Shown here piece after piece: positions 8,259 through 63,978 of a DNA stretch of 64,000 nt (position 1 is its first letter; the number at the start of each line of letters is the position of its first letter). Origin of the DNA: Fluviicola sp. (GTDB lineage: Bacteria; Bacteroidota; Bacteroidia; Flavobacteriales_D; Crocinitomicaceae); the NCBI GenBank assembly GCA_002734065.2, contig NVXU02000030.1, forward strand, positions 1 through 64,000, written 5' to 3'. A program made the position numbers and the translations under genes. The notes below the pieces were generated by a model. It was not told the origin of the DNA. It searched no databases and worked only from the letters and a program-made list of their open reading frames with translations.

Positions 8259-9350
8259 ATGAAAAAAACAGCACTCAACGATATACACGAAGCTCTTGGA
8301 GCAAAGATGGTTCCTTTTGCAGGGTACAACATGCCTGTGCAGTACGAAGGAGTAAAAGCCGAGCATGAAACTGTTAGAAATAGCGTTGGGGTTTTTGATG
8401 TTTCTCACATGGGAGAATTTCTGATTTCTGGTGAGAATGCACTTGATTTAATTCAAAAAATATCGTCTAACGATGCTTCTACGCTCACTATCGGTCGTGC
8501 ACAATACAGTTGCATGCCAAATGGCAAGGGCGGAATCGTTGATGATCTTATTATCTATAAAATTAAAGAGCAAGAATATTTACTCGTTGTAAATGCGTCT
8601 AATATTGACAAAGATTGGGAGTGGATTTCTTCTCACAATTCTTTCGGAGCAACGATGCGCAACTTGTCTGACGATTATTCTCTGCTTGCCATTCAAGGAC
8701 CAAAAGCAGTCGAAGCAATGCAATCACTTTCTTCCATTGATTTATCGGCGATAAAATACTATCATTTTGAGGTTGCCGACTTTGCAGGGATAGAACATAC
8801 CATTATTTCTGCCACAGGATACACTGGTTCTGGTGGATTCGAGATTTACTGCAAAAACAGTGAGGTGGAGCAAGTTTGGAAAAAAGTCATGGAAGCTGGA
8901 GCAGAATTTGGCATCAAAGCAATTGGTTTGGCTGCAAGAGATACATTGCGTTTAGAAATGGGATTCTGCTTGTATGGCAATGATATCGACGACACAACCT
9001 CTCCACTTGAAGCTGGTTTAGGCTGGATAACGAAACTTAAAAAAGAAGCTGATTTTATTGATAAAGATTTTTTAACAAAGCAAAAAGAAGAAGGCGTTTC
9101 TCGCAAATTAGTTGCTTTTGAAATGATTGATAGAGGTATTCCTCGTCATGATTACGAAATCGTAGATGTCAACGGAAATAAAATTGGCCACGTAACTTCG
9201 GGCACTATGGGACCTTCTGTTGAGAAAGCAATCGGTTTAGGCTATGTGGCCACTGATTTCACTGCCGTTGATAGTGATATTTACATCGCGGTAAGAAAAA
9301 AGCAGTTGAAAGCGAAAGTGGTGAAGTTGCCGTTTTTTAAGAAAGGCTAA
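8259..9350 (+). CDS. gcvT: glycine cleavage system aminomethyltransferase (T protein)
   Basis: A 363-residue T protein. It releases ammonia from the aminomethyl group on lipoyl-GcvH and passes the one-carbon unit to tetrahydrofolate, acting in the cytoplasm with GcvP, GcvH and Lpd. Family hallmarks are present in order: the N-terminal [10 protein letters not shown] and [10 protein letters not shown] segments, the folate-site region ([20 protein letters not shown]), [12 protein letters not shown], and the C-terminal barrel ending in [13 protein letters not shown]. Length and start fit the family. gcvP and gcvH are not in the window, so the genes are dispersed. The preceding gene is divergent; the next gene starts 13 bp downstream and may be cotranscribed. 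Confidence 0.97.
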
Positions 9351-9363
9351 AAGTGGAAGCGAA

Positions 9364-10060
9364 ATGAAAAACCTACTTCTTTCCATAACAATTGTACTTA
9401 GCACTGTATCATTTAGCCAAATTCATTATATCGAAACGAGCGGAGGAGTAAACATTTCTACAATTTATAATAGCTCTCCATTTAATAATACCAGCCCAAT
9501 CTATAGAGGTAGCTTTAGTTTTGGATATACGTATAAGTTTAGTAATAAATTAACTCTTGGAACAAATATAGCTTATGCTCAGTCTGGTTTCAAAGATCAA
9601 ATCATTTTTACAGATGTCTTGGGAAATGACCTTGGGGTTAATGATGTTTTCACCCTTTATTTAACTGAATATATTTCTATCCCTTTAAAGATTGGCATCG
9701 AAACTGGGAGCGATAAAATGACCTTTTCTGGCTCAATAGGAATTGTTCCTGCTTTCAATGTTGGTGCTCGTATTAAGTACCCCTATCGTTAATTCTGAAT
9801 TGAATGTAATAGATTATTCAGTTTGGAAATTTTCGGCAAACTCAATCCAATTTAGTGCTCAGTTAGATGCAGCTATTGGCTTTAGGGTTTCACCTAGGCT
9901 CACTCTTCTAGTTAAGGGAAAGGTCATTAACCTCGGTTTTACTAACATATTTTTGAACACTTCTACAGTCAGTGGTTTTAAAGCATACACCTATGAGAAT
10001 ACAATCTCTTTGGGAATTCGATATCAATTAAAAAAAAGTAAAAAATCAAATCAAAACTAG
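9364..10060 (+). pseudogene. outer-membrane beta-barrel protein (PorT-like) split by a one-base frameshift
   Basis: Two frames make one protein of about 230 residues. The first (9364-9792) has a signal peptide (MKNLLLSITIVLSTVSFSQ) and amphipathic barrel strands, but stops just after GARIKYP. The second frame picks up at about 9783 with IVNSELNVIDYSVW and ends in the strand ISLGIRYQLKK, a normal barrel C-terminus. Removing one C from the CCCC run at 9780-9783 joins them smoothly. This is either a real inactivating frameshift or a base-calling error. The family is an 8-stranded outer-membrane barrel common in Bacteroidota, with unknown cargo. Its TAG stop (10058-10060) overlaps the first unit of an intergenic 8-bp repeat. 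Confidence 0.75.
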
Positions 10061-10098
10061 GTCTAATGCTCGAATGCTCCAACACTCCAAAGCTCTAA
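10059..10098 (-). repeat. 8-bp phased repeat, locus A (five units)
   Basis: On the minus strand five contiguous 8-base units read TTAGAGCT, TTGGAGTG, TTGGAGCA, TTCGAGCA and TTAGACCT with no slippage. They fill the gap between two convergent genes, overlap the stop codon of the barrel gene and end 2 bp from the dnaE stop. Confidence 0.85.
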
Positions 10099-10100
10099 AC

Positions 10101-13100
10101 CTACTTTATCCTATACTCCAAATCCAACGCACTCAATCCTGTGAATAATTCCTTGCTTAAATCGACTTTTATGGTTTTTGAAGGCATTCTTACCTCTACT
10201 CCATCGAGAGAATCGTAAACAGTGAAGTGCAAAGTGCAATTCCCGGTGTTTTCGGAGAATAATGCGTTTAAATCGGTAATCATTCGTTGGTCTAAGGCAG
10301 AATTTGCCACCTTTAAATGAATGGCATTCGCTCGGGTTTCTTTGAGATTGTGCAGTAAATCAATGGAGCCAATGTTAAATTCTAACTTATTCCATCTCGA
10401 TAAATCAATTCTCCCTTTGATAGAAATAAAGGTGTTGGGGTTCAAAAAATGTTTGTATTTTAGGTAATCTTCTCGCCACAAAAATATTTTGGTAGAATCG
10501 TTGTAATCTTCAATGATAATGGTTCCAAAAGGGTCTCCTTTACGCGTTGTTCTATGCTCTCCTTCGGTGATTACTCCGGCAATAAGTAGGTCTTTGCCTC
10601 TGTTTTCTTCAATATTGTTCAACATTCCGACATTTCCATTGCAGAATGCATCAATTTCCATCTTAAAATCATTCAATGGATGCCCAGAAATGTAAATTCC
10701 AACCACTTCTTTCTCTTTGTTGAGCGCATAAATATTCCCCCATTCTTCAGCAATCGGAATGATAGGTGGAGGCAATTCAGACCCCGAATTTTCTCCAAAC
10801 AAGGAACCTTGATTTGAATTAACACTGTCTTGAAAGCCAGAACCGAACTTCATGACATTCTCCATAAAAGTTCTGCCATTGCTGTCTTCTTGGAAATATT
10901 GTGCTCGATGAACTCCTCCAAAAGAGTCAAAACCGCCAGAAAAAGCCAAACTTTCGAATGCTTTCTTCGTGACGATTCTAAGGTTGATGCGTTTTGCAAA
11001 ATCAAAGATGTCTTTGTAATCTCCTTCTTTAGAACGACCTTCAATAATAGCCTCTACGGGAGAAGCTCCGAGTCCTTTTACGGCACCCAAACCAAAACGG
11101 ACAGCACCTGCTTTGTTGACGGTAAAATGATAGTTCGACTCATTGACATCAGGACCGAGAACCTCGATTCCCATGCGCTTGCATTCTTCCATAAAGAAAG
11201 AAACTTGCTTGATGTCATTCATGTTATTACTCAGCACAGACGCCATGTATTCTGCCGCATAATTTGCTTTGAGATAAGCCGTTTGGTAAGCAATCCAGGC
11301 GTAGCAAGTAGAGTGAGATTTATTAAAAGCGTAGGATGCAAATGCTTCCCAATCTTTCCAAATTTTCTCCAATTTTACCGAATCATGCCCTTTTTCTCCT
11401 CCTCGCTCAATGAAAGCAGGTTTCATTTTATCCAGTGTTGCCTTTTGCTTCTTCCCCATTGCTTTACGCAAGGTATCGGCTTCACCTTTTGTAAATCCAG
11501 CTAATTTTTGAGAAAGCAACATCACTTGCTCTTGGTAAACCGTAATTCCGTAGGTTTCTCCTAAATATTCTTCGCAATCATCGACATCGTAAACAATTTC
11601 TTCTTCGCCGTGTTTTCTTTTAATGAAAGAAGGAATATACTCAATCGGTCCAGGTCGATACAAGGCATTCATGGCAATTAAATCGGCAAAAACGGTTGGT
11701 TTCAACTCCCGCATGTACTTTTGCATTCCCGCGGACTCATACTGAAAAATTCCGACGGTTTCTCCTCGTTGAAAGAGTTCGTAGGTCTTCTCATCGTCGA
11801 TTGGAAAAGTATCAGGATCTAATTTCTCTCCTTTTGTTTGCTCAATGTTGGCAACCGCATGCTTGATTAAGGTCAGGGTTTTCAATCCCAAGAAATCCAT
11901 TTTCAACAATCCTGCATCTTCTGCCACAGAATTATCGAATTGCGTGCAGAACATCCCTGTGTCTTTCGCCAAGGCAACAGGAACGTAATTAGTAATGTCG
12001 TCTGGCGTGATAATCACACCGCAAGCATGAATTCCCGTATTTCTAACAGAACCTTCTAACTGAATGGCTTGATTCAACACTCTGGAAGGTAAATCATTCC
12101 CCGAAGCAATGGTTTTCAGTTCATTTGCTCGGTTAATATCGTCTTGATTGTTGTTTAATTTCTCTCTTAATTCAAGATCAGAAAGTCCAAATATTTTATT
12201 GAGTTTTATGTCAGGAACCAACTTTGCAATTCTATCAGCGTCTGACAATGGCAAGTCCATAACCCTTGATACATCTCGGATTGAAGACTTTGCAGCCATT
12301 GTTCCGTAAGTAATTATCTGTGCAACTTGGCTAGAACCGTACTTTTCAATCACCCAATCAATGACCTTTCCACGACCTTCATCATCGAAATCAATATCGA
12401 TATCGGGCATGGAAACACGGTCAGGATTTAGGAAACGCTCAAATAGCAAATCGTAGGCAATAGGATCGATGTTGGTTATCCATGTACAATATGCAACGGC
12501 AGAACCTGCGGCAGAACCACGACCTGGACCAACGGATACCCCCATGTCTCGTGCCGCCTGAATGAAATCTTGCACAATGAGAAAATAACCCGGATAGCCC
12601 GTGTTCGCAATGACAGACAATTCAAAATCCAAACGTTCGCGAATTTCATCTGTGATTTCTTCGTAGCGTTTTTTTGCTCCCTCGTAAGTTAAATGACGCA
12701 AATAGTTGTTCTCCCCTCTTTTTCCACCGTCTTTTGCATCTTCTGGGTCGGTAAATTCTTTAGGAATCTCAAAAGCAGGTAGCAAAACCTCTCTTGCCAG
12801 CGGATAATGTTCTACTTGGTCAATAATTTCATCTATCGACATGATTGCTTCTGGAATATCCAAAAACAACTCCTTCATTTCGTCTGGCGACTTGAAATAA
12901 TATTCTTCATTCTCCAAAGCATATCGAAAACCTCTGCCTCTCCCCTTTGGTGTTTCTACGAGCTCATTGTCCTTGATGCAAAGCAATAAATCATGTGATT
13001 CAGCATCCTCTTTATCAATATAATAGGTATTATTGGTGGCAATGAGTTTTACAGAATGCTTTCTCGCCAATTCTATCAAAGTTGCGTTAACACGGCGCTC

Positions 13101-14456
13101 ATTTTCTTGCCCGTGACGCATTATTTCAACGTATAGATTCTCTTTGAAGATAGATTTCCACCAAATCAATGCTTCTTCCGCTTGTTTTTCACCAACATTT
13201 AGGACCAAACTCGGGACTTCTCCGTAGAGGTTTCCTGTGAGAACAAAAATATCTTCGCTGTATTGTTCAATTAACTTTTTGTCAATTCTTGGAACGTAAT
13301 ACATTCCTTCGGTGTAGGCAATTGACGCTAATTTTATCAGGTTTTGGTAACCGTTTTTATTCTTCGCAAGAAAAACAACTTGGTAACCATTGTCTTTTAC
13401 ACTTTTGTTGTTATGGTCTCCGCAAACATTGAATTCACAACCAATAATAGGCTTCATTTCTGTGAATTCATAGGTCTCGCCATTCTCTTCCGCTTCCTTT
13501 TGTTTTTCTTTCTGCGCTTTGTTGAAATCAGTGACTGCTTTCTCAAAATGAAAAGCCGCCATCATGTTTCCGGTATCTGTAACTGCAACGGCGCGCATGT
13601 TCATTTTTCCAGCAGTAGCAACGAGCGATTTTACATCTATTGTAGATTGCAGAATTGAATATTGCGTATGGTTGTGAAGATGTGCAAAGCTATAATCGGC
13701 AAGTACACCAAGGGCTTCAGACTTGTCTATGCTTTCTATTTCTTCTTCAACCTCTTCAAGAAGCTTTGCACTTTCTTCTTTAAGATTGAGGTGCTTCAAC
13801 CCTATTAAACCAATTGGCGCAGGGTTAAATTCTTTAAAATCTTCTAAGTATTTATCCTCTTGCTGTAATTCTGCTGGAGAAAAAACTCCGCGTCTGAGCA
13901 ACTCTAAAAAACACCTTGTTGTTGCCTCTACATCGGCAGTAGCATTGTGTGCTTCTGCAAAATCTTGCTGAAAAAGATGCGTATGTAGTTCTGATAAAGT
14001 CGGTAATTTAAAACGTCCACCTCTCCCCCCTGGTAATTGACATAAATTTGCCGTAACTTCTGTACAGGTGTCCAAAACAGGCATTTCAAACATAGGAGAA
14101 TCCATCTCGAAGCGGTAATATTCACACCCCCAAACACTGGTGTCAAATTTCACATTCTGTCCAATAACAAATTTTGCTTTGCCGAGGTCGGTATTGAATT
14201 CTTCAAGAATTGTCTTTAAATCATGTCCTTGTTCTACGGCTAATTGCGTAGAAATTCCATGAATTTGTTCTGCATCGTACGGAATATTGTACCCTACTGG
14301 CTTGATAAGGTAGTCTTTGCTTTCTAGCAAACGTCCCATATCATCATGCAGTTGCCATGCAATTTGAACCACGCGCGGCCAATTGTCTGTGTCAGAGACA
14401 GGCGCTTTCCAACTTCGAGGAAGTCCGGTTGTTTCGGTATCAAAAATGATGTACAT
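10101..14456 (-). CDS. dnaE: DNA polymerase III alpha subunit with fused N-terminal 3'-5' exonuclease
   Basis: A 1451-residue replicative polymerase. Residues 1 to about 190 form a DEDD exonuclease (epsilon-like): ExoI DTETTGLP at 6-13 and an ExoIII-like HNATADVEATT. A PHP domain follows from about residue 260 (FAHLHNHTQYSIL). The C-family polymerase palm carries the catalytic PDIDIDFDDEGRGK near residue 680, then the finger and beta-clamp regions and a C-terminal OB-fold (about 1290-1390). It acts in the replisome. The fusion makes it about 250-300 residues longer than typical DnaE and would supply proofreading in cis; similar fused forms are, as far as I recall, usual in flavobacteria. No intein is present. 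The ATG at 14456 starts directly on the exonuclease strand. Confidence 0.96.
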   Translation of the reverse strand: MYIIFDTETTGLPRSWKAPVSDTDNWPRVVQIAWQLHDDMGRLLESKDYLIKPVGYNIPYDAEQIHGISTQLAVEQGHDLKTILEEFNTDLGKAKFVIGQNVKFDTSVWGCEYYRFEMDSPMFEMPVLDTCTEVTANLCQLPGGRGGRFKLPTLSELHTHLFQQDFAEAHNATADVEATTRCFLELLRRGVFSPAELQQEDKYLEDFKEFNPAPIGLIGLKHLNLKEESAKLLEEVEEEIESIDKSEALGVLADYSFAHLHNHTQYSILQSTIDVKSLVATAGKMNMRAVAVTDTGNMMAAFHFEKAVTDFNKAQKEKQKEAEENGETYEFTEMKPIIGCEFNVCGDHNNKSVKDNGYQVVFLAKNKNGYQNLIKLASIAYTEGMYYVPRIDKKLIEQYSEDIFVLTGNLYGEVPSLVLNVGEKQAEEALIWWKSIFKENLYVEIMRHGQENERRVNATLIELARKHSVKLIATNNTYYIDKEDAESHDLLLCIKDNELVETPKGRGRGFRYALENEEYYFKSPDEMKELFLDIPEAIMSIDEIIDQVEHYPLAREVLLPAFEIPKEFTDPEDAKDGGKRGENNYLRHLTYEGAKKRYEEITDEIRERLDFELSVIANTGYPGYFLIVQDFIQAARDMGVSVGPGRGSAAGSAVAYCTWITNIDPIAYDLLFERFLNPDRVSMPDIDIDFDDEGRGKVIDWVIEKYGSSQVAQIITYGTMAAKSSIRDVSRVMDLPLSDADRIAKLVPDIKLNKIFGLSDLELREKLNNNQDDINRANELKTIASGNDLPSRVLNQAIQLEGSVRNTGIHACGVIITPDDITNYVPVALAKDTGMFCTQFDNSVAEDAGLLKMDFLGLKTLTLIKHAVANIEQTKGEKLDPDTFPIDDEKTYELFQRGETVGIFQYESAGMQKYMRELKPTVFADLIAMNALYRPGPIEYIPSFIKRKHGEEEIVYDVDDCEEYLGETYGITVYQEQVMLLSQKLAGFTKGEADTLRKAMGKKQKATLDKMKPAFIERGGEKGHDSVKLEKIWKDWEAFASYAFNKSHSTCYAWIAYQTAYLKANYAAEYMASVLSNNMNDIKQVSFFMEECKRMGIEVLGPDVNESNYHFTVNKAGAVRFGLGAVKGLGASPVEAIIEGRSKEGDYKDIFDFAKRINLRIVTKKAFESLAFSGGFDSFGGVHRAQYFQEDSNGRTFMENVMKFGSGFQDSVNSNQGSLFGENSGSELPPPIIPIAEEWGNIYALNKEKEVVGIYISGHPLNDFKMEIDAFCNGNVGMLNNIEENRGKDLLIAGVITEGEHRTTRKGDPFGTIIIEDYNDSTKIFLWREDYLKYKHFLNPNTFISIKGRIDLSRWNKLEFNIGSIDLLHNLKETRANAIHLKVANSALDQRMITDLNALFSENTGNCTLHFTVYDSLDGVEVRMPSKTIKVDLSKELFTGLSALDLEYRIK

Positions 14457-14561
14457 GCAACTAATTTATTGGGAGTATAAAAATAGAGAAATAAGGGGTA
14501 GCAAATGCAGATTGTGGATTACTTTTGAAAAAAACATTAATTTAGGACAAAATTAGGGGCA

Positions 14562-15176
14562 ATGACAAAGAGAAAAGTGAAAAAAGCGATTTACCAATCC
14601 ATTTTTGTAGAGCAAAAATCTCACAAGGAGACATTTGATGAGTTTAGAGGGGAAAGTGATTTGACTCCCGACGAATTAGCGGACGAGGTCGCAAAAGTTC
14701 CATCACGGCAGAAAAACGAAGAGTTACTGACTCTGCGCATCGTTTTTATCATTTCGTTGTGCTTGGTTATTCTCTTGAGAATTGGTGGAATATATGCCTT
14801 AACTCTCACGGAAAACCTTCCAATATTTGTTCTTTTAATCGCTTTGGTTTTTGGTTTGGTGATACCAGCTATGGGAATATTCGCTGCCATAAAAGGGCGC
14901 GTTGAGTTGTATTATTTAACCGGTATTTTTTTAGTTGTGGGAACTTTACGCTCATTCACAAAAGGATTAGACACGAGTAATTTACTCATTATCGGAGCTG
15001 TTTTAATTCCATTCTTCATTGCTGTCATTTTGGCTTTTTACATTCCCAAAAAAATGAAAACCAAGTTCACCAAGAAAGTCGTGTCAGACACGGTTGATGG
15101 GCAAGCAAGTAAAAAATTAGTCTATCAGTTCGAATCAATGGCGCCCGCCAATGATATACTAGACGGGGGCTTGTGA
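14562..15176 (+). CDS. multi-pass membrane protein of unknown function
   Basis: A 204-residue protein with a hydrophilic N-terminal arm (about 60 residues, rich in Lys and Glu) followed by four hydrophobic segments near residues 62-84, 87-110, 116-136 and 143-163, then a basic cytoplasmic-looking tail. No catalytic motif is recognised. It is divergent from dnaE and 31 bp upstream of the FkbM-type methyltransferase in the same direction, so the two may form a transcription unit, but no functional link is obvious. Confidence 0.75.
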   Translation: MTKRKVKKAIYQSIFVEQKSHKETFDEFRGESDLTPDELADEVAKVPSRQKNEELLTLRIVFIISLCLVILLRIGGIYALTLTENLPIFVLLIALVFGLVIPAMGIFAAIKGRVELYYLTGIFLVVGTLRSFTKGLDTSNLLIIGAVLIPFFIAVILAFYIPKKMKTKFTKKVVSDTVDGQASKKLVYQFESMAPANDILDGGL

Positions 15177-15207
15177 GCTTTGCAAAGAATTAAACGAAGA
15201 AAATAAA

Positions 15208-16047
15208 ATGTCATTGACACACAGCATCGTACAGAAATTATTAGGTTCGCCGAAGTTCTTTGGGCGTGATTTTCTGATCGAAAAACTACCCTCATGGTTC
15301 ATCAAAAAGCCAACAGAAAATGAAATCGTGCAGACCAATTTTGGCTTTAAAATAAAAGTGAATCCGCTGTTTGACAAGAACATTGAGAACGTAATTTATG
15401 AACGTGGCGTTTATGAATTGGGAACGCTTACTGTTTTGCGAGAATTTTTAAAACCCAATGACACTTTCGTAGATGTTGGCGCAAATATTGGTTTTCTAAG
15501 TCTTGCCGGAGCACATTCTGTCGGTGAGAATGGAAGAATACACTGCTTTGAACCTGTTCCTTCTACCTTTGAGATTCTGCAAAAGAACAAGGAACTCAAC
15601 AACTTTTCACAAATAGAATTGCACGAATTTGCCTTGGGCGAAAGAACTGAAGAGGCAACAATTTATGCTGAAAAAGAGAATCGTGGTGGCGCATCCATTG
15701 TGAATCAACATTCTTCTGATGGAATTATAATTCAAGTGAAAAAATTAGATGACCTAGCGTTGAAAAGCACGGTTAACGTAATGAAAATTGATGTTGAAGG
15801 CTTTGAATTGGACGTTTTAAAAGGTGCTAAAGAAACGATTCGCAAAGACAGACCAAAATTAATCATTGAATACAGTACGGAACGGAATAATTCTGGAGAA
15901 AAGCATGAGTTGTATCAGTGGTTGGTAGAGTTAGGCATTTACCGAGTTTTCAAATTGAAAAAAGGCAAGGAGCGCAAGTCAGAGTTGGTAGAAATTCTTT
16001 CAGTGGAAGATTTACCGGTGCATGATAATATTTTTTGTATGGAGTAG
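15208..16047 (+). CDS. FkbM-family SAM-dependent methyltransferase
   Basis: A 279-residue class I methyltransferase. Motif I (FVDVGANIGFLSLAG, residues about 88-102) binds SAM, with the acidic CFEPVPS at the end of strand 2. The FkbM-type motif MKIDVEGFELDVLKGA (about residues 191-206) is also present. FkbM proteins O-methylate sugars or polyketides; in Bacteroidota they often act on surface glycans, but the substrate here is unknown because there are no glycosyltransferases nearby. It follows the membrane protein at 14562-15176 and is convergent with the NTF2-like gene across a repeat-filled gap. Confidence 0.88.
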   Translation: MSLTHSIVQKLLGSPKFFGRDFLIEKLPSWFIKKPTENEIVQTNFGFKIKVNPLFDKNIENVIYERGVYELGTLTVLREFLKPNDTFVDVGANIGFLSLAGAHSVGENGRIHCFEPVPSTFEILQKNKELNNFSQIELHEFALGERTEEATIYAEKENRGGASIVNQHSSDGIIIQVKKLDDLALKSTVNVMKIDVEGFELDVLKGAKETIRKDRPKLIIEYSTERNNSGEKHELYQWLVELGIYRVFKLKKGKERKSELVEILSVEDLPVHDNIFCME

Positions 16048-16068
16048 GTGTGTGTATTGGAACGCAGA

Positions 16069-16090
16069 TACTTCGACAGGCTCAGCACAA
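16069..16090 (+). repeat. dispersed repeat with TTCGACAGGCTCAG core
   Basis: The sequence TACTTCGACAGGCTCAGCAC belongs to a dispersed family (core TTCGACAAGCTC) also seen at 21341, 29351, 54281 and, more diverged, 29265, 31119 and 58783. Here it lies just downstream of the FkbM gene. It is followed by an imperfect TTCGCTGAT/TTACGCTGAT stretch that is also repeat-like. Confidence 0.6.
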
Positions 16091-16147
16091 ATTCGCTGAT
16101 TTTTATGATTTACGCTGATAGATGTGCATTCGTAAATATGTTTTTTT

Positions 16148-16227
16148 TCGATAAGTTGTCGAGTAGTCAAGAAGTCGAACGCTCGAAAGCTCCAAAACTC
16201 TAAAACTCTAACGATCTAATGCTCTAA
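16148..16227 (-). repeat. 8-bp phased repeat, locus B (up to ten units)
   Basis: On the minus strand 8-base units read TTAGAGCA, TTAGATCG, TTAGAGTT, TTAGAGTT, TTGGAGCT, TTCGAGCG, TTCGACTT and then decay (CTTGACTA, CTCGACAA, CTTATCGA) while keeping the 8-bp phase. The first units encode the last residues (RALDR) and the TAG stop of the NTF2-like gene. Confidence 0.85.
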
Positions 16228-16672
16228 GTTCAATAAACTCCTTAATCTTCTCATTCTCAATCAGCACCGTTAAGTTATAATAGACCAATTTCCATTGTCC
16301 TTTTTTGCGAACGAGAATTCCACTACCTCTGCAACCTTGCATCCATGTTTCGAGGTCTTCATCGAACCAAGCCATTTTCTTGTTTTTGGAGAATTGCCAA
16401 TTGCGATTTGACGCTTTAAAATCCCAAGCCTTGCCTTTCTCGAAATAGGGCTTAGAAAAGGATGCAAATTCGGATTTTGCCCAACGTTCGCCTGGTGCAG
16501 TGCCTAGAAATATAAAGGATTCGTCCATTGCTCCAAAATAGGCATCGAAATCAGCATCGCTTGCCGCTTGATGCCACGATGTCATTAGCTGATTGAGTTC
16601 GTCGATTCTCCCATCACTTTTAACAAAAGAAAAGCTCACAAAAATGAACAGCGCAAAGATTATCTTCTTCAT
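16208..16672 (-). CDS. secreted NTF2-like (SnoaL/DUF4440-type) protein
   Basis: A 154-residue protein with a signal peptide (MKKIIFALFIFVSFSFVKS) and one NTF2-like cone fold. The family signature is visible in IDELNQLMTSWHQAASDADFD, FIFLGTAPGERW, and the beta strands WFDEDLET, SGILVRKKGQWKLVYYNLTV. Such proteins bind small ligands or act as SnoaL-like cyclases; without known catalytic residues the function is undefined. The C-terminal residues ELRALDR and the stop codon fall inside an intergenic 8-bp repeat, so the natural C-terminus may have been extended or replaced. A terminator separates it from the subtilase gene upstream on the same strand. Confidence 0.8.
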   Translation of the reverse strand: MKKIIFALFIFVSFSFVKSDGRIDELNQLMTSWHQAASDADFDAYFGAMDESFIFLGTAPGERWAKSEFASFSKPYFEKGKAWDFKASNRNWQFSKNKKMAWFDEDLETWMQGCRGSGILVRKKGQWKLVYYNLTVLIENEKIKEFIELRALDR

Positions 16673-16691
16673 ATTCTTGTTTTTTTTGTAT

Positions 16692-16721
16692 AAAAAAAGG
16701 ATTGAAAAACTTCAATCCTTT
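16692..16721 (-). terminator. rho-independent terminator after the 16744-18426 peptidase
   Basis: An 11-bp stem (AAAGGATTGAA / TTCAATCCTTT at 16696-16721) with a 4-base loop is followed, reading on the minus strand, by a run of T. It sits 22 bp after the stop of the subtilase gene. Confidence 0.85.
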
Positions 16722-16743
16722 CTACTATCAATTCATTTCTAAA

Positions 16744-18426
16744 TTATTCTGCAACTGCTGCGTGAGAATGATTTTTAGAAGTATTTGTTCTTACTTTTTT
16801 AGTCGTCGTTGTTTTTTCTGTGGCAACATTCTCTTTCGATTTCTTTACTGAAGAACTGCTATTATCAGCTTTTGCTTTCGCCTTTTCTAAAACCATAAGT
16901 GCTTTTACAGCATTCAATACATTGACAACGCCACCAGTTACAGATAAAGTTGCAAAATCAGTCATTTTCTTCGTCTCAGGATGCGTTTGTTCAACACCTT
17001 TGTAAGATTTAGCAGAAGAAAGCATCACATCTTTGATTTCTTTCATTGTAAAATCAGGAAAGTACGATTTCAACATTGCTGCAACACCAGCAACCATTGG
17101 AGATGCCATTGACGTTCCTTGTAGAATTTGATATTCACTTTGTGGAACCGTATTGTAAATTTCAGAACCTGGAGCAAAAACATCTACTCCCTCTTGTCCA
17201 TAGTTAGAAAAAGAAGAAGGTAATTTTTCTTTGCTATCTTTCGTTGAAGAACCAATTGTTAAGAAATGATCCAATTTTTGTGATTGAAAAGAATACTTAT
17301 ACGTTGGAAAGTTTTTTTCCGTATCAACATTCTTAGAATCATTACCAGCAGCGTGCACCATTAACACACCTTTAGAATCTGCATAAGCAAATGCTTCGTA
17401 AACTTCTTTTTGATGAGGAGAGTAAGACTTTCCAAAAGACATATTGATTACTTTCGCACCATTATCAACTGCATAGCGGATTGCTAAGGCAATGTCTTTA
17501 TCAAACTCATCTCCATTTGGTACAGCACGTAAAGACATTAACAAAACATCATTTGCGACACCGTCTCCACCTAAATCATTTCCTCTGATTGCACCAACGA
17601 TTCCACCAACGTGCGTTCCGTGCAGTGCATCTGGACCTTCTACATCGTTGTTTCCATAAACTACATCGCTAAAGTCATCTGGGTTATCACCTACTAATTC
17701 ACGACCGTTAAAATCTTTGTTAAGATGTGTATCTAACATTCCTTGAACTTGTTTTTTCTGAGCTTCAATCGCTTCCATAGACAATTGTCCAGAAAGAATA
17801 GCCATTGCGATTTGTTTTGTCTGTGCTTTATCGCCTTCTGCTTTCCACTTTTTCAAATCATCCATTGTGTAATCTTCTTTACCCAATTCTTTTGCAACTT
17901 GCGCAGGAACAGCCTCAATCATTGGTGCCATCATGCCCATTTGCATCAAATAACCTTCGTATTGTGCTCTTTCATCTTCAACTGCTTTTTTTACTTCTTC
18001 AAGCAATGCTGTCTCCTCATCTGAAAGGTTCTCTTTTGCAGAAAGTTGTGCATAGATCCGAGTCATTTCAAGACGCATATCATTCGCGTTCTCTCCGTCT
18101 TTGTTTCCTAAGAAGTTCCATCCGTGAATATCATCGATGTAACCATTGTTGTCATCATCAATTCCATTTCCTGCAATCTCGCCAGTGTTTGTCCAGATTT
18201 TACCTTTTAAATCCTCATGTTCGATATCAATTCCAGAATCAATAATCGCAACAATTACTGTCGTCGTTTTACGTTTCTTCAATTTCTTGTAAGCTTTATC
18301 TGTTTGCATTCCTGCTTTACTTACATTGTACCAATTCAATATATCTTTATCTACTTGACCGTGGCTGAAACCTGTCAAAGCAATTGCAAAAAGACTTAAT
18401 GCTAATTTGATTACGATTTTATTCAT
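16744..18426 (-). CDS. secreted S8 family serine peptidase (subtilase)
   Basis: A 560-residue subtilisin-like protease with a signal peptide (first 23 residues). The catalytic triad is readable: Asp63 in AIIDSGID, His272 in HGTHVGG and Ser439 in GTSMASPMVAG, with the oxyanion Asn in AAGND. An unusual insertion of about 170 residues, mostly helical and Met/Glu-rich, separates the Asp and His blocks. The C-terminal tail (about 515-560) is Lys/Ser/Thr-rich and has no T9SS domain, so the enzyme probably stays periplasmic or is released by another route. It is divergent from a second, T9SS-tagged subtilase 115 bp away. Similar insertion-bearing subtilases are common in Bacteroidota. Confidence 0.93.
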   Translation of the reverse strand: MNKIVIKLALSLFAIALTGFSHGQVDKDILNWYNVSKAGMQTDKAYKKLKKRKTTTVIVAIIDSGIDIEHEDLKGKIWTNTGEIAGNGIDDDNNGYIDDIHGWNFLGNKDGENANDMRLEMTRIYAQLSAKENLSDEETALLEEVKKAVEDERAQYEGYLMQMGMMAPMIEAVPAQVAKELGKEDYTMDDLKKWKAEGDKAQTKQIAMAILSGQLSMEAIEAQKKQVQGMLDTHLNKDFNGRELVGDNPDDFSDVVYGNNDVEGPDALHGTHVGGIVGAIRGNDLGGDGVANDVLLMSLRAVPNGDEFDKDIALAIRYAVDNGAKVINMSFGKSYSPHQKEVYEAFAYADSKGVLMVHAAGNDSKNVDTEKNFPTYKYSFQSQKLDHFLTIGSSTKDSKEKLPSSFSNYGQEGVDVFAPGSEIYNTVPQSEYQILQGTSMASPMVAGVAAMLKSYFPDFTMKEIKDVMLSSAKSYKGVEQTHPETKKMTDFATLSVTGGVVNVLNAVKALMVLEKAKAKADNSSSSVKKSKENVATEKTTTTKKVRTNTSKNHSHAAVAE

Positions 18427-23306: not shown

Positions 23307-23380
23307 GGCGAGGTAGCTCAGTTGGTTAGAGCGCAGGATTCATAACCCTGAGGTCGGGAGTTCAAATCTCCCTCTCGCTA
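23307..23380 (+). tRNA. tRNA with CAT anticodon (elongator Met, or Ile2)
   Basis: A 74-nt cloverleaf: acceptor stem GGCGAGG / TCTCGCT (two G-U pairs), D arm GCTC...GAGC, anticodon loop TTCATAA with anticodon CAT, T arm GGGAG-TTCAAAT-CTCCC, and discriminator A. The 3' CCA is not encoded. CAT can be elongator Met or, with lysidine, Ile; the overall sequence looks like elongator Met, but this is not certain. The last anticodon-stem pair is A-C, a mild oddity. The 3' end of the gene is repeated twice downstream. Confidence 0.93.
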
Positions 23381-23386
23381 CAAAAA

Positions 23387-23412
23387 AGTAATCTTAACGG
23401 TTGCTTTTTTTT
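23387..23412 (+). terminator. tRNA terminator
   Basis: Stem AGTAATC / GGTTGCT (7 bp with two G-U pairs) and loop TTAAC, followed by a run of T. It starts 7 bp after the tRNA. Confidence 0.75.
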
Positions 23413-23487
23413 GCTTTCGGGAGATTAGCAACAGCACTAACGTTTGCTGCTCGAATGATAACTCATTCTCTTCTCTCGCTACAAAAA

Positions 23488-23514
23488 AGTAATCTTATCG
23501 ATTGCTTTTTTTTT
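23488..23514 (+). terminator. duplicated copy of the tRNA terminator
   Basis: Stem AGTAATC / GATTGCT with loop TTATC and nine T, the counterpart of the tRNA terminator in the second repeat unit. The stem is kept by a compensatory change (C-G then T-A), so its structure may have been preserved. Confidence 0.65.
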
Positions 23515-23592
23515 GATTTCGGGAGATTAGCAACAGCACTAACGTTTGTTGCTCGAATGATAACTCATTCTCTTCTCTCGCTACAAAAAAAA

Positions 23593-29264: not shown

Positions 29265-29301
29265 GGAGTGTACCTCGACTGACGCTCGGCAACCAGTGTG
29301 G
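29265..29301 (+). repeat. 37-bp direct repeat, left of the SulP gene
   Basis: This block (beginning GGAGTGTACCTCGACT and ending GGCAACCAGTGTGG) recurs at 31119-31155 with 36 of 37 bases identical and in the same orientation, on the other side of the SulP gene. Its centre resembles the TTCGACAAGCTC family. Confidence 0.9.
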
Positions 29302-29350
29302 AGTGATGAGTGATGAGTGATGAGTTTTTTCGTAGGCAGGTGTTAGAATT

Positions 29351-39109: not shown

Positions 39110-40147
39110 TTAGTACTTAATTTCATAATTCTTAACTGTTTTAATAAATGTTTTAACCTTCTCTGGATCAACATCAGGATAAACTCCGTGTCCTAAATTA
39201 ACAATATGTCGCTTACTTTCGAAAGAATTTAGCATATTATTTGTCAATCGTTCTATTTCTGCATGTGTTGAGTACAATGCACACGGGTCTAAATTGCCCT
39301 GTAATGTCTTGTTCTCACCAACCAAACTTCTTGTCTTAACTATATCTGTATTCCAGTCTAAACCGACCGCATTACAATCCATTTTCACAATTTTTGAAAG
39401 CGAATTATGCGCTCCTTTAGCAAATAAAGTCAATGGAACTTCAGTGATTGCTTGTGCAATTTTGTCCATGTACTTCAATCCAAATTCTGCATATTGTTCT
39501 TCTCCTAAAATACCTGCCCACGAATCAAAAACTTGAATCATGTGTGCACCGGCATTTATTTGAGCTTTCAAATATTTGATTGTTACATCTGTTATACGAT
39601 TAAGCAACTCGTGTGCCAAAGATGGATTTGTGTATAATATTTTACGTGATTCTGAAAATGTTTTGGACCCTTGACCCTCCGTCATATAACAGAAAATCGT
39701 CCATGGAGCACCTGCAAAACCAATCAATGGAACACGTCCGTTAATTTCTTTGTTAGCAATTTTTATTGCCTCCAAAACATAACTTAGTCTGTCTTCAATA
39801 TCAAAATCAGTGTTGGCATATTTCAATGCTTCTTCTGTGCGAATTGTTTTTTCAAACCAAGGTCCTTTTTTTTCGATCAATTGATATTCCAATCCCATTG
39901 CTTCAGGAACAACTAGGATGTCAGAAAAAATAATCGCAGCATCCACGCCGAGCAAATCGACAGGTTGAACCGTTACTTCGGCTGCTCTTTCAGGAGTTTC
40001 AACGAGTTCTTTAAATCCAGACAAAGAAGCTCTCACTTTTCTGTATTCTGGAAGAATACGACCCGCTTGTCTCATCAACCAAACAGGGTATCTTTCGATG
40101 TCCTCTCCCCTCGCAGCTCGTAAAATTAAATCATTCTGAAAAATCAT
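39110..40147 (-). CDS. hemE: uroporphyrinogen decarboxylase
   Basis: A 345-residue cytoplasmic enzyme that decarboxylates the four acetate side chains of uroporphyrinogen III to coproporphyrinogen III in haem synthesis. Hallmarks are present: [21 protein letters not shown] (substrate-binding Arg residues), the catalytic Asp in [16 protein letters not shown], and [16 protein letters not shown]. The length is typical. No other haem gene is in the window. The ATG at 40147 is only 5 bp after a TATCTTTG box. The OmpA-family gene follows almost without a gap. Confidence 0.97.
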
Positions 40148-40152
40148 GATGC

Positions 40153-40160
40153 AAAGATAG
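40153..40160 (-). promoter_or_regulatory. -7 box 5 bp before hemE
   Basis: On the minus strand TATCTTTG matches TAnnTTTG and is followed by CATC and the ATG region. A transcript started here would be leaderless or nearly so. A clear -33 element is missing. Confidence 0.5.
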
Positions 40161-40161
40161 G

Positions 40162-40280
40162 AAGATTTTAGAAGATTTGGAGATTGACGTGGTTGTTTGT
40201 TCGGATTTGAAGATTAAAGAACACCTACAATGGGCATCAATCTTCAAATCTCCGAATTTCCAAATCTCCAAATCTCTACT
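40162..40280. repeat. inverted 8-bp phased repeat, locus C
   Basis: Between ung and hemE. On the right (40240-40279) minus-strand units read TTGGAGAT, TTGGAAAT, TCGGAGAT and TTGAAGAT, in phase. On the left (40170-40185) plus-strand units read TAGAAGAT and TTGGAGAT. The two arms can pair as a long imperfect hairpin. Confidence 0.7.
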
Positions 40281-40286
40281 TCTCCA

Positions 40287-40958
40287 CTACCAATTAATCT
40301 TCGCCTTCCCGTTTGCTACCAAATAATCATTCGTTTTAGAAAATGGTTTTGAGTCAAAGAATCCTCTGTAAGAAGATAAAGGAGAGGGATGCGGCGATTT
40401 TAAGACTAAATTCTTGCTTTCATCCACGAAACTTGCTTTTTTTTGTGCCTTTGCCCCCCAAAGAATGTAAACGATGCTTTCCGAGTGTGTATTTAAGGAC
40501 TGAATAATTGCATCTGTAAATTGTTCCCACCCTTTGCCAGAATGACTGTCTGCTTCTCCTTCTTTGACTGTCAAAACAGAATTCAGCAGCAATACACCTT
40601 GCTTTGCCCAATGACTTAAACTTCCATTTTTTGGCTGTTTTATATTCAAGTCTGATTGAAGCTCCTTGTAGATGTTTTGCAAACTCTTTGGCAAAGGTTT
40701 AACATCTTCTTCTACAGAGAAACACAAACCGTGAGCATGACCTCTTGTTGGATAGGGGTCTTGACCGAGAATAACAACTTTTACATCCTCAAAATCACAA
40801 CTATTAATGGCTCGGAAAATTTGTTCTTCCTTTGGAAAAATGGCGCCTGGATATTTATCATTCTCCGAATCTAAAAACTGCCCCAATGATTTAAAATATT
40901 CTTTTTCAAATTCATCGCCTATAAATTGCCTCCAAGAATCATTGATTCTGATTTCCAT
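40287..40958 (-). CDS. ung: uracil-DNA glycosylase
   Basis: A 223-residue family 1 UDG that removes uracil from DNA in base-excision repair. The water-activating motif is VVILGQDPY (Asp67), the uracil-specificity Asn is in LLLNSVLTV, and the DNA-intercalation loop is HPSPLSSYRGF. The motif reads GQDPYP rather than the usual GQDPYH, a mild variant followed by TRGHAHGLCFSV. Its length matches E. coli Ung. It lies upstream of hemE on the same strand across a repeat-rich 139-bp gap, and is divergent from the lipoprotein gene. Confidence 0.96.
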   Translation of the reverse strand: MEIRINDSWRQFIGDEFEKEYFKSLGQFLDSENDKYPGAIFPKEEQIFRAINSCDFEDVKVVILGQDPYPTRGHAHGLCFSVEEDVKPLPKSLQNIYKELQSDLNIKQPKNGSLSHWAKQGVLLLNSVLTVKEGEADSHSGKGWEQFTDAIIQSLNTHSESIVYILWGAKAQKKASFVDESKNLVLKSPHPSPLSSYRGFFDSKPFSKTNDYLVANGKAKINW

Positions 40959-40992
40959 AGTGTAAAAATAACTGTTTTTAGTTCAGAATCAT

Positions 40993-41000
40993 TAATTTTG
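40993..41000 (+). promoter_or_regulatory. -7 box 4 bp before the lipoprotein gene
   Basis: TAATTTTG matches TAnnTTTG; only AAAC separates it from the ATG at 41005, implying a leaderless transcript. Confidence 0.5.
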
Positions 41001-41004
41001 AAAC

Positions 41005-41763
41005 ATGAAGTATTTCCAATTCTTAGTTTTAAGTATCCTTTTATTTTCTTGCGGTGAAGAAATTGTTGATAATGTCGTTCCAGACGATAAAGAAGATGTC
41101 GTTGAAACCTTGGAGCAAAAAATCACGCATCACATAGAAGCAACTCTGCAAATTCCCGCCACTGAAAAATATACGTACGAAACTTTTTCGGAACACATAA
41201 ACGGTGATGATAGCTTGGATTTAGTAATTACAGTAAATCTTCTTGAAAGAGCAGTCAACAAAGCAATTGCTGGAGACCGGTTGGCAAAACGTGCAGAAAC
41301 TGGATTTTCCGGACGTTATAATTATTTCTTCATCATGGATGGCGCAAGCAAAGAAATCACAGAAGCATTTCCTGTTCCATCGAGCGCGAAGGCAAAAATA
41401 AAGGTTCAATTTGAGAACATCAGAACGGAGGCTTACAAAGACATTTTATTAGATTACAGAGTAGATAACGCTTGTTTTAGAAGGTATTTTACGATGTATA
41501 ACTCTATCCCCAAAGAAACTTTTGAAATAATGTTATTCGATGGATTGGGGGACATAGAAAATCATGCAATCGTTACAGAATATGTTCAAGGAAGCTATTC
41601 TTTAGCAAAGGACATTCTAATTTATTCAGGAGAATTGGAAAAAGTAAAATTCGACGACCCTTCAAAGGTTTATGATTATGAGCCTGAGATTAAAAAGACA
41701 AATATTCTTGAGAGAAGATGGTTTTACAATGACAATCAACGGAAGTATTTTACGAAGAAGTGA
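41005..41763 (+). CDS. lipoprotein of unknown function
   Basis: A 252-residue protein with a lipoprotein signal peptide: MKYFQFLVLSILLFSCGEE, where Cys16 follows a lipobox-like LLFS. An acidic linker (DNVVPDDKEDVVETLEQ) follows, then a mixed alpha/beta domain with HINGDDSLDLVITVNLLERA and two Cys residues (Cys16 apart). The phrase YFIMDGASKEITEAF-like beta pattern does not match a family I know. In Bacteroidota such lipoproteins usually sit in the outer membrane. It is divergent from ung and convergent with the TonB-dependent receptor; no operon partner is visible. Confidence 0.8.
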   Translation: MKYFQFLVLSILLFSCGEEIVDNVVPDDKEDVVETLEQKITHHIEATLQIPATEKYTYETFSEHINGDDSLDLVITVNLLERAVNKAIAGDRLAKRAETGFSGRYNYFFIMDGASKEITEAFPVPSSAKAKIKVQFENIRTEAYKDILLDYRVDNACFRRYFTMYNSIPKETFEIMLFDGLGDIENHAIVTEYVQGSYSLAKDILIYSGELEKVKFDDPSKVYDYEPEIKKTNILERRWFYNDNQRKYFTKK

Positions 41764-41919
41764 GGGACGTGGTTGCCTGTTAGAATTATTGATTATGAAT
41801 TATTAAAGTTTCACCTTCTCTGCGTCTATCTGCAAAATCTGCGCGAGAAGAAGAAAGTGTATCATGCAAACGGAAAATGGAAGTGAAACTAATCAGCTAA
41901 TTACTAATTTACTGTCAAT

Positions 41920-41959
41920 TTTTCTAACGCTCGAAAGCTCCAACTCTCCAATAATCTAA
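41920..41959 (-). repeat. 8-bp phased repeat, locus D (five units)
   Basis: Minus-strand units TTAGATTA, TTGGAGAG, TTGGAGCT, TTCGAGCG and TTAGAAAA are contiguous. The TAG stop codon of the TonB-dependent receptor lies in the first unit. The adjacent 41776-41850 stretch holds other repeat-like pieces (GTTAGAATTATTG; CTCTGCGTC, TATCTGCAA, AATCTGCGC with a 9-bp period). Confidence 0.85.
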
Positions 41960-44376: not shown

Positions 44377-44464
44377 GATGGTAAATGTACATTTTTGGAT
44401 AATCAATGAATTCGCTTTTAAGCAAAAATCGTGCAAAGAATAGATAAAAGTAAGAAGTGAAGAA

Positions 44465-44845
44465 TTAACTCAAGCTATGCTTCTTTCTCAAGGATGAAAT
44501 AATTTCCTCTTCACTCAATTTATCTTCAGCGGTTTTATTAGTTATGATTAACCAATTGTATTCATTTTGAATCTTTACGGCCAAAAATGTATTTTCCCAA
44601 TTTATAGTATTGTCCGCTGCGTATTTTTGAACTGCATCTTTAAACTGTTTGATGTAGTTTTCTTGGGTCATCTTTTTCGTAAACAGCTGCAGCATCCATG
44701 TTGAAACATTTTTAATAACAATGCCTTTAGTGCCTATTTTCCAATCAATCGTACTTCCAATTTTTTTCACTGGTATTCTGTATGAAAAATCCTTTTTATC
44801 GATGGAAACATGAATTTGATTGTCTTTGAGTGAGTGTTTTAACAT
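44465..44845 (-). CDS. conserved-looking small protein of unknown function
   Basis: A 126-residue cytoplasmic protein, mixed alpha/beta, without a signal peptide or membrane segment. Visible features are a Lys-rich N-terminal sheet (HVSIDKKDFSYRIPVKKIG), a central helix (ENYIKQFKDAVQKYAADN) and an acidic C-terminus (EDKLSEEEIISSLRKKHSLS). No family is recognised. It starts 4 bp after the stop of the 104-residue gene at 44850, so the two form an operon and probably act together. The downstream neighbour is the TonB-dependent receptor, 89 bp away on the same strand. Confidence 0.65.
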   Translation of the reverse strand: MLKHSLKDNQIHVSIDKKDFSYRIPVKKIGSTIDWKIGTKGIVIKNVSTWMLQLFTKKMTQENYIKQFKDAVQKYAADNTINWENTFLAVKIQNEYNWLIITNKTAEDKLSEEEIISSLRKKHSLS

Positions 44846-44849
44846 AATA

Positions 44850-45164
44850 CTACTTTTGTTTCAGAATTTTATTGGCTACTTCTTTAGCATCCATGCAGTA
44901 TTTATCATCGCCTTCTAATTTCCATTCACCAGTTTTTTCGATGTAAAACTGAACCGTTTTCTCTAGAACTTCAGAATAACCACCTAGCGACGTTAACATA
45001 TCTTCAACCTCTTTTACGTAATCTTCATGACTCAGACCTCCTGACTTGACAAGTTCCCATTGCTTGTTAATTCGTCGAGATTTATCCTTACAAACAGGAT
45101 CTTCTTTCTTATAAGCCATTAAGAAAAGAGAAAGTGCTTTTGCTTCTGGAGATGGTTTTTTCAT
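44850..45164 (-). CDS. small helical protein of unknown function
   Basis: A 104-residue, Lys/Glu-rich, mostly helical protein (LFLMAYKKEDPVCKDKSRR, LSHEDYVKEVEDMLTSLGG, NKILKQK at the end). It is cytoplasmic by composition. I do not recognise a family. It is the first gene of a two-gene unit with the 126-residue protein, separated by 4 bp. Confidence 0.65.
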   Translation of the reverse strand: MKKPSPEAKALSLFLMAYKKEDPVCKDKSRRINKQWELVKSGGLSHEDYVKEVEDMLTSLGGYSEVLEKTVQFYIEKTGEWKLEGDDKYCMDAKEVANKILKQK

Positions 45165-45265
45165 TGTTTTAATTTTAGTTGGGCAAATTTACGGAATCAA
45201 TACGGAATTGGCTATGTTTGAGGATTATATTTGAAGAGGCTGAATTATGGAAGATGATATTCAGG

Positions 45266-46306: not shown

Positions 46307-46320
46307 TTCGAAGCAAATTC

Positions 46321-47649: not shown

Positions 47650-47656
47650 TGCGGTG

Positions 47657-47664
47657 CAAAAGTA
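47657..47664 (-). promoter_or_regulatory. -7 box 7 bp before mtaB
   Basis: TACTTTTG on the minus strand matches TAnnTTTG, with only seven bases before the ATG, so the leader would be at most a few bases. Confidence 0.55.
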
Positions 47665-47681
47665 GAAATTTAATTGGTAAA

Positions 47682-47793
47682 AAGGAGCATTGGAGCATTA
47701 GAGTATTGGAGCGTTAGAGTTTTAGAAACGCCAAGATGATTTTATCACAAGAAATGTCTAAAAATCGAACACTCCAAGGCTCTAAAAATCTAA
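47682..47793. repeat. 8-bp phased repeat, locus E, as an inverted pair
   Basis: On the plus strand six units run in phase at 47682-47729 (AAGGAGCA, TTGGAGCA, TTAGAGTA, TTGGAGCG, TTAGAGTT, TTAGAAAC). On the minus strand four more lie at 47762-47793 (TTAGATTT, TTAGAGCC, TTGGAGTG, TTCGATTT). The arms face each other between the divergent mtaB and icmF and could pair. Confidence 0.85.
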
Positions 47794-47831
47794 AAAAATG
47801 CTTACTTTCGCATCGCAATAAATCACACCTT

Positions 47832-62390: not shown

Positions 62391-62420
62391 TTACTTAATC
62401 AGAAACTGTGCCAAAAGCGA

Positions 62421-63050: not shown

Positions 63051-63120
63051 TAAAGTTAAATCATTAGGCTTGCAAGTTAAAAATTAATTTTGATTGGAAA
63101 ATTTCTTGAAGTTGCACTAA

Positions 63121-63232
63121 GTCCTCCCCTCAATCCCCCTCCAAAGGGGGAAGCTAAACACCTATAAAAATCATTGAAAAAATTTCGCGTATCGACGTCT
63201 TCCCCCTTTGGAGGGGGATTGAGGGGGAGGAC
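63121..63232. repeat. near-perfect 33-bp inverted repeat (GGGGGA-rich)
   Basis: The left arm 63121-63153 and right arm 63199-63232 are reverse complements apart from one indel in a C-run. Each arm contains CCCCCTTTGGAGGGGGATTG or its complement, and the arms enclose 45 bp. It lies between mnmD (minus) and the esterase (minus). Similar G-rich palindromes are, as far as I recall, common in Bacteroidota genomes. Confidence 0.9.
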
Positions 63233-63243
63233 CTGACGACTGA

Positions 63244-63900: not shown

Positions 63901-63918
63901 GGGGTGAAGATAGTGAAA

Positions 63919-63978
63919 TTGGAGCTTTGGAGCATTAGAGTGTTGGAGCGTTGGAAAACCAAAGCTCCAATACTCCCC
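63919..63978. repeat. 8-bp phased repeat, locus F, as an inverted pair
   Basis: On the plus strand five units run in phase at 63919-63958 (TTGGAGCT, TTGGAGCA, TTAGAGTG, TTGGAGCG, TTGGAAAA). On the minus strand TTGGAGCT and GGGGAGTA lie at 63963-63978. It sits 18 bp upstream of the mnmD start. Confidence 0.85.

Follow-up and report, generated by a model that had tools for sequence, protein, structure and literature searches.

The octamer arrays of the window

The window, a stretch of 64,000 nucleotides from Fluviicola sp., contains strings of 8-bp units at the ends of genes or in the spacers between them. The genes that neighbor these arrays are ordinary ones, encoding DNA polymerase III alpha, a SnoaL-like protein, an FkbM methyltransferase, a TonB receptor, methylmalonyl-CoA mutase, a radical SAM protein, and uracil-DNA glycosylase. 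The arrays, in window coordinates, are as follows.

Array A, 10059..10098, minus strand: units TTAGAGCT TTGGAGTG TTGGAGCA TTCGAGCA TTAGACCT; begins 2 nt past the stop of the minus-strand DNA polymerase III alpha gene, in a convergent gap.
Array B, 16156..16227, minus strand: nine units, TTAGAGCA ... TTCGACTT CTTGACTA CTCGACAA; its start overlaps the 3' end of the SnoaL-like gene, and GAG units give way to GAC units.
Locus C, 40162..40287, no single strand: facing arms of a sister octamer family, TTGGAGAT/TTGAAGAT, with the loop TACAATGGGC.
Array D, 41912..41959, minus strand: units TTAGATTA TTGGAGAG TTGGAGCT TTCGAGCG TTAGAAAA ATTGACAG; the stop codon of the TonB receptor gene lies within unit 1.
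Array E, left arm, 47682..47729, plus strand: in a divergent gap.
Array E, right arm, 47754..47793, minus strand: faces the left arm.
Array F, left arm, 63919..63958, plus strand: units TTGGAGCT TTGGAGCA TTAGAGTG TTGGAGCG TTGGAAAA; upstream of a minus-strand methyltransferase gene.
Array F, short facing arm, 63959..63978, minus strand: CCAAAGCTCCAATACTCCCC.

Direct inspection of the sequences finds phased 8-bp units at all six of the loci (6/6) reported by a first-pass annotation, and the phase is strictly 8 bp, as that annotation had stated. Its assignment of all six to a single word, TTRGAGYN, holds in part: A, B, D, E, and F fit TTVGAGYD (where V is not T and D is not C), but locus C is built of the sister word TTGGAGAT/TTGAAGAT (complement, ATCTCCAA), which is not TTRGAGYN. 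A four-unit profile that scores T, T, G, A, and G at positions 1, 2, 4, 5, and 6, with a cut-off of at least 17/20, matches 21 positions of the window, every one inside the six loci, and has no match in 20 first-order Markov shuffles of the window.

Abundance and spelling of the units

In the genome from which the window comes (the home genome), the arrays are abundant. The first-pass annotation had set beforehand, as a refutation of the repeat, a genome scan in which arrays would be no more frequent than in control sequence; the arrays lie well above control, with 309 matches to TNGANNNTTNGANNNTTNGANNNT versus 16 for the same pattern read backwards, 190 versus 11 for TTNGAGNNTTNGAGNNTTNGAG, and 391 versus 23 for TTNGANNNTTNGANNNTTNGA, which is three TTNGA units in phase. 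In 828,636 home-genome bases, a pattern-free scan for five units with at least half of the columns unanimous recovers 46 arrays at period 8 and 21 at period 7, versus 0 to 7 at each remaining period between 5 and 16; one order-3 Markov shuffle yields no array at either period 7 or period 8. The profile scan, the reversed controls, and the pattern-free scan together rule out chance as the origin. Three contigs contain 13 arrays in 400,000 contiguous bases and the window contains 6; scaled from these, the home genome holds roughly 110 to 140 arrays, an estimate based on contigs already known to contain some matches. Much of the 364,636 home-genome bases sampled was likewise aimed at pattern matches.

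Other short-period repeats are present in the same genome. Further period-8 families are GTTAAGNA, TTGGAGAT, and ATTRAAHC, and period-7 families are AAGAATT and GTGGAGT/GATGAGT. Arrays of the last kind lie at window positions 29279-29333, L199 9023-9121, and L203 10200-10283; outside of ORFs their G-rich strand is co-oriented with the gene on the 5' side in 9/9 cases. The loop of locus C, TACAATGGGC, is seen again at L147:3089, and the stem-loops at locus C, L147 3089, and L147 7800 have a common loop (TACAYCTACAATGGGC or close to it) on unrelated octamer stems, as if the loop were the constant part and the stem replaceable. A composite intergenic element of about 290 bp occurs twice within 5 kb of L147 (2859-3152 and 7590-7863), the two copies being alike in layout and different in octamer copy numbers and letters. 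Recurring mosaic modules lie beside arrays in L197, L203, L205, L209, L210, and L214; the modules CTCTGCGAACCTCTGCGCCTTCTCTG, ATCAGCGT..ATCAGCG, and TGAGCCTGTCGAA have 8, 4, and 14 pattern matches, respectively, in the 828,636 bases. Within the window, a tRNA gene (23307-23380) is followed, in the region 23307-23590, by 2.2 copies of a 102-bp tandem repeat that starts at the tRNA 3' end.

The unit profile of the home genome derives from 135 internal units of 49 arrays. Positions 1, 2, 4, and 5 are near-invariant as T, T, G, and A (134, 135, 132, and 135 of 135), letters that the array definition itself favors. Position 3 is A in 31, C in 30, G in 68, and T in 6 units; position 7 is C in 68, T in 60, G in 4, and A in 3; and position 8 is A in 41, G in 42, T in 49, and C in 3. 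Thus, positions 3, 7, and 8 do vary, as had been claimed, and they do so within narrow alphabets, but position 6, which is G in 116 units and T in 15, varies too. Diversity-generating reverse transcription was dropped as an origin given these restricted letters at positions 3, 7, and 8. So was a function as all-frame stop signals, since a stop codon arises only when position 3 is A (TAG) or T (TGA), as in 37/135 units.

Neighboring units within a home-genome array are barely more alike than shuffled ones, with a likeness of 0.490 versus 0.469 (p 0.15); a cruder count, which keeps the terminal units, gives 0.435 for neighbors and 0.386 between arrays. Some dependence is present. Position 6 is alike in neighbors at 0.789 versus 0.719 shuffled (p 0.004), position 7 of neighboring units is associated (p 0.001), and within units there is weak association between positions 6 and 7, 3 and 7, and 7 and 8. 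Among 54 arrays with 204 units, runs of units common to different loci do not exceed chance: 30 two-unit runs versus 26.1 expected, 1 three-unit run versus 0.5, and 0 four-unit runs versus 0.007. For both neighbor likeness and shared runs the terminal unit of each array was dropped and L211, a duplicate of L197, was left out. Because units are near-independent, loci share no runs, and facing arms are not matched (see below), the arrays look like separate strings from one profile.

These results bear on one account of such repeats, which is that they are neutral slippage microsatellites, mutating and expanding in place and bounded by the neighboring genes. Slippage clearly adds units in some arrays. 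Orthologs can differ by single units: L155:5849 differs from its G031 counterpart by exactly one, and the G031 ortholog of L210:14250 has an extra 5' unit, CTGGAGCA. Identical neighbors are in excess in five genomes (18 of 146-147 versus 7.2-7.7 expected in the home genome, 13/42 versus 3.2 in G014, 31/57 versus 5.4 in G028, 7/38 versus 1.4 in G012, and 7/31 versus 2.9 in G013), and in G028 and G014 neighbors are clearly more similar to each other than shuffled units. Intergenic tandem heptamers are common in prokaryotes (PMC6344855). The first-pass annotation had named uniform tracts of one unit as the mark of slippage. The home genome as a whole is not of this kind, although single uniform runs occur at L199:11315 and L214:1872; among relatives, some arrays of G028, G014, G022, G032, G085, and G129 are uniform, and in G085 and G129 almost all are, among the matches listed. 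Against slippage as the sole cause are the low likeness of home-genome neighbors and the arrays of G094, a member of another genus, in which neighbors are less alike than shuffled (similarity p 0.002) and 0/47 are identical where 3.4 are expected. Nor would slippage be expected to yield a restricted profile that is common to loci and changes between species. Slippage thus acts on some arrays and genomes but does not write most home-genome arrays, and as a full explanation we consider it unlikely. By shuffles, profile, neighbor likeness, and unit runs, the pattern in the home genome is neither chance nor plain slippage, in line with the earlier reading. Arrays in that genome resemble neither the product of simple copying stutter nor duplicates of each other, suggesting that they are recognized or built by something.

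The core TTNGANNN is common to relatives, including other genera of the family, while its spelling is species-specific, mostly GAG, GGAT, CGAT, or GAC. When GAG is required, 5/60 genomes match, home genome included; TTNGA alone matches in 28/34 genus genomes at very uneven levels, with three or fewer matches in 17 of the 34. Matches versus control number 136/0 in G028, 53/10 in G003, 47/0 in G013, 44/15 in G014, 41/8 in G022, 40/2 in G012, 31/2 in G032, and 30/2 in G031. The commonest spelling is GAG in the home genome, G014, and G031, GGAT in G028 and G013, CGAT in G012, and GAC, mixed with GAT, in G020 and G025. An order-level scan with four units matches 24/150 genomes, again counting the home genome, and in other genera G094 and G139 spell TTRGATND and G172 spells TTAGAYNN. 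The stretches from relatives were chosen for holding pattern matches, and the density of arrays in them is therefore not a sample. More widely, at least 116 stretches of named genomes match; among the matches listed, these are mostly uniform octamers, from many phyla. A scan of viral contigs gives two stretches, one uniform and one in blocks of two spellings. In G079, of the same order, the reversed control pattern matches 44 times, and phased octamers of an AGNTT type may exist there.

Placement, facing arms, and turnover

By type of gap, 17 home-genome arrays are convergent, 19 tandem, and 6 divergent, while 4 lie at stretch edges and 3 inside ORFs; in the background, 70/428 gaps of at least 30 bases are convergent. 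The claim that arrays never lie deep inside a gene therefore stands for 46/49 arrays but not for three in predicted ORFs (two in L203 and one in L204), as called by a crude ORF caller. When the counts are limited to arrays outside ORFs with genes on either flank, the arrays prove to be polar: the 5' end, on the TTNGA strand, tends toward a gene boundary and the 3' end does not. In the home genome the 5' end is at a boundary, either overlapping it or no more than 5 nt away, in 20/42 arrays (random, 7.7), in eight genus relatives in 34/102 (random, 13.4), and in three genomes of other genera in 15/42 (random, 1.3), versus 7/42, 9/102, and 1/42, respectively, for the 3' end, for which the random values are identical. 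Of five genus relatives tested singly, G028 has no such preference, and a held-out home-genome sample of 271,319 bases has 6 arrays, 4 of them usable, too few for polarity. The strand of the array relative to that of its genes is mixed, since tandem gaps contain 12 co-oriented and 7 anti-oriented arrays in the home genome and 23 and 41 in genus relatives. For this reason, a link to Rho through rut sites, with TC every 8 nt on the complement, was not adopted.

The first-pass annotation described loci C, E, and F as facing arms, and facing arms are both real and polar. A facing partner, sought within 120 bp, is present for 36/166 arrays and a back-to-back partner for 4/166; in other genera the numbers are 24/43 and 3/43. 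However, the two arms match each other at 0.74 (28 scored of 30 pairs), no better than the 0.752 of 160 swapped arms, which weakens inverted duplication or pairing-driven arms as an origin.

One possible role for the facing arms is that of terminators or of 3' barriers shielding mRNA. The RNA folds of E (z -4.1) and F (z -5.0) and of two G139 facing pairs (z -2.3 and -3.2) are consistent with such hairpins, as are z values below -2 in 12/22 G013 arrays and the 36 arrays that face a partner. In addition, 17/42 home-genome arrays follow within 5 nt, or overlap, the stop of a co-oriented gene (null, 5.1), and at two gaps where G014 has arrays (L362:1154-1283 and L155:19742-19872) the home genome has, by eye, another inverted repeat, as if a stem were wanted. 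Yet a partner is lacking for most arrays, only 12/49 home-genome arrays have z below -2 on the sense strand (median, -0.34) and 14/49 on the other, and array E lies between divergent genes. The folds of L373 (z +1.7) and L376 (z -1.5) are uninformative about those stems, as a 150-base limit removed the partner arm. Because the two arms of a pair match no more closely than arms taken from separate loci, the transcript-end structure proposed earlier fails as a general role, and we regard hairpins as an improbable explanation of the arrays. In three window regions (9000-17000, 39500-48500, and 62000-64000), scanned for intrinsic terminators with a G+C-containing stem, a loop of 3-8, and a following T-run, 0/9 terminator-like sites overlap an array, which rejects or weakens classical terminators. 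A known RNA is rejected as well: at gathering score, the sole Rfam match in the window is a tRNA located outside the arrays, and no family covers an array.

Comparison with orthologous sites reveals constraint together with turnover. Of 13 comparisons between the home genome and G014 or G031, the array is retained in seven: both arms of E, D twice (G014 and G031 both carry an array at the matching place), L155:5849, and both parts of L201. At the left arm of E, G014 has an in-phase array with different units. Across these seven, a set picked after inspection, TT-GA positions differ at 4/119 sites, other array positions at 44/116, and flanks at 223/744, the flank of one L201 part being inflated by a home-genome-specific insert. 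The other six comparisons are absent, decayed, or shifted by one unit; the shifted one, L210:14250, differs at 5/24 TT-GA sites and 13/24 others. When the sum is taken over the 11/13 comparisons in which gaps make up no more than 30% of the array, the contrast is smaller, with differences at 40/210 sites for TT-GA, 96/205 for other positions, and 366/1164 for flanks. In the sister species used for comparison, five arrays are absent or degraded (B, which has none at the matching gap in G014, L200:8518, L156:1950, L210:11438, and L362:2358), and many sites are thus dispensable.

This presence and absence is what might be expected of composite mobile or spreading intergenic repeats, similar to REP, MITE, or ERIC elements, whose arms happen to be octamer arrays and whose lineage-specific bursts would give rise to the spellings. 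Other observations point the same way. At L201:7099-7286, the home genome has a composite insert where G031 has a single array, and facing partners far outnumber back-to-back ones. The last unit is also distinct, with A or C at position 6 in 28/55 home-genome arrays versus 4/201 inner units and in 27/35 arrays of G094 and G139 versus 5/122; positions 6-8 of the last unit may fall outside the repeat proper, so that only the excess over base composition counts. Finally, 3' flanks are alike in 3/9 G172 arrays, and G094 and G139 contribute one such pair apiece, each confined to a single locus. Nevertheless, apart from the duplicated locus L197/L211, loci have no unit runs in common beyond chance, which weakens a copy-paste of arrays, and by eye no common core lies beside the home-genome arrays. 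The special last unit is absent from G028 (A or C in 4/26) and G013 (4/22). Y1 transposases (PF01797) do not track the arrays: they are found in 13/34 genomes, among them G000 (weakly), G003, G014, G028, and G031, and are not found in the array-bearing G012, G013, G022, G032 (72% complete), G020, and G025, which weakens a Y1/RAYT mobilizer. Mobile repeats would account for the gain and loss of arrays and for their facing order, but not for unit orders that are unrelated; this account is possible, and we lean against it.

The polarity could also mean that arrays are made, by a unit-adding process with a loose template that extends toward the gene-proximal 5' end. In its favor are the abutment of 5' ends in several genera, the distinct 3'-terminal unit in several genomes, the near-independence of units, the position of the two ortholog unit differences at or beside the 5' end, and GAC-type units that lie 3' of GAG units in several arrays of the home genome, G014, and G031. 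But growth checked by selection at the coding sequence would produce abutment too, two indels are too few for a direction, and we know of no enzyme that would add loosely templated 8-base units. We rate such synthesis as highly improbable. Its fuller form, in which a dedicated process would add units gene-proximally, new before old, so that an array would record time order and the current spelling of its species, we take to be very doubtful.

A putative cooperative binder and comparison with known systems

Our tentative preference, held with rather less than even confidence, is that the arrays are motif arrays kept by a putative cooperative binder. They would act in cis as runs of a short nucleic-acid motif set head to tail at 8-bp steps, with the core TTNGA on one strand and TCNAA on the other. 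A putative oligomeric protein would bind adjacent units in a row, probably at the boundaries of genes, and so keep the phase. Positions 3 and 6-8 would carry the letters that a given species favors, a pattern to be expected when a binder and its motif change in concert; a slowly changing preference of the binder would keep TT-GA and the 8-bp step and let the other letters vary within a species-specific set. Single units would come and go by slippage and whole arrays would be gained and lost, with selection keeping TT-GA for as long as an array is used. Whatever agent is required, it would not mainly copy units from neighbors or from other loci. What the arrays themselves display is their phase, column constraint, species spellings, polarity to gene boundaries, and turnover and, in the home genome, near-independent units; from these we infer a binder that would act cooperatively and may influence transcription, the 3' ends of mRNAs, or the structure of the chromosome. 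One motif-specific binder would not explain the unrelated 7- and 8-bp families, some of which likewise follow stop codons. Such similarly placed families argue for a more general process and keep confidence in the binder low.

The arrays offer handles that most short intergenic repeats lack, in that they combine a core found across several genera with a spelling particular to each species, with units that in several genomes are nearly independent, and with a polar placement at gene boundaries. A binder, if there is one, would amount to a new system at gene boundaries with a code that changes between species; if none exists, the data still call for a mutation process beyond standard slippage.

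The first-pass annotation knew of no named family for this repeat, and searches of open-licence papers agree, with none on octamers of this kind among the papers listed. REPs are described as palindromes, most with GTAG or CGTC motifs, that lie mainly downstream of coding regions (PMC3733652), and REPs within 15 nt of stop codons are described as stalling ribosomes (PMC12306157). The present arrays resemble REPs and BIMEs in their extragenic location, high copy number, frequent position downstream of genes or directly behind stops, frequent facing pairs, and, for some families, species specificity (PMC3733652; PMC12306157). However, REPs and BIMEs are palindromes of 20-40 bp, most with an unpaired GTAG or CGTC at one end, and the GTAG type is linked to RAYT transposases, whereas the arrays are direct 8-bp repeats, often single, with no constant tag and no link to PF01797. 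A palindrome is not present in each copy; a facing partner lies within 120 bp in 36/166 arrays and the rest are direct repeats. A GTAG or CGTC tag is absent from the TTVGAGYD profile and, by eye, as a constant neighbor of the 49 home-genome arrays.

The STAR elements of staphylococci are also intergenic direct repeats with a degenerate consensus, with no known function or way of spread (PMC3532100). They differ from the arrays in both unit length and sequence: a STAR element consists of a 14-bp GC-rich repeat, TNTGTTGNGGCCC, whose copies alternate with recurring sequence of 40 bp or more, whereas the arrays have 8-bp units, no spacer, and another sequence, and do not belong to that family.

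Cyanobacterial STRR heptamers, the nearest analogue in the first-pass annotation, are short, phased, intergenic tandem units. Short intergenic tandem repeats in general are reported to be abundant in a wide range of prokaryotes and to have no known function (PMC6344855); the present arrays are like the prokaryotic heptamers in consisting of short phased intergenic units with no known function. Compared with both, the arrays are set apart by their period of 8, their loose spelling, a core common to several genera, and, in several genomes, the low likeness of neighboring units.
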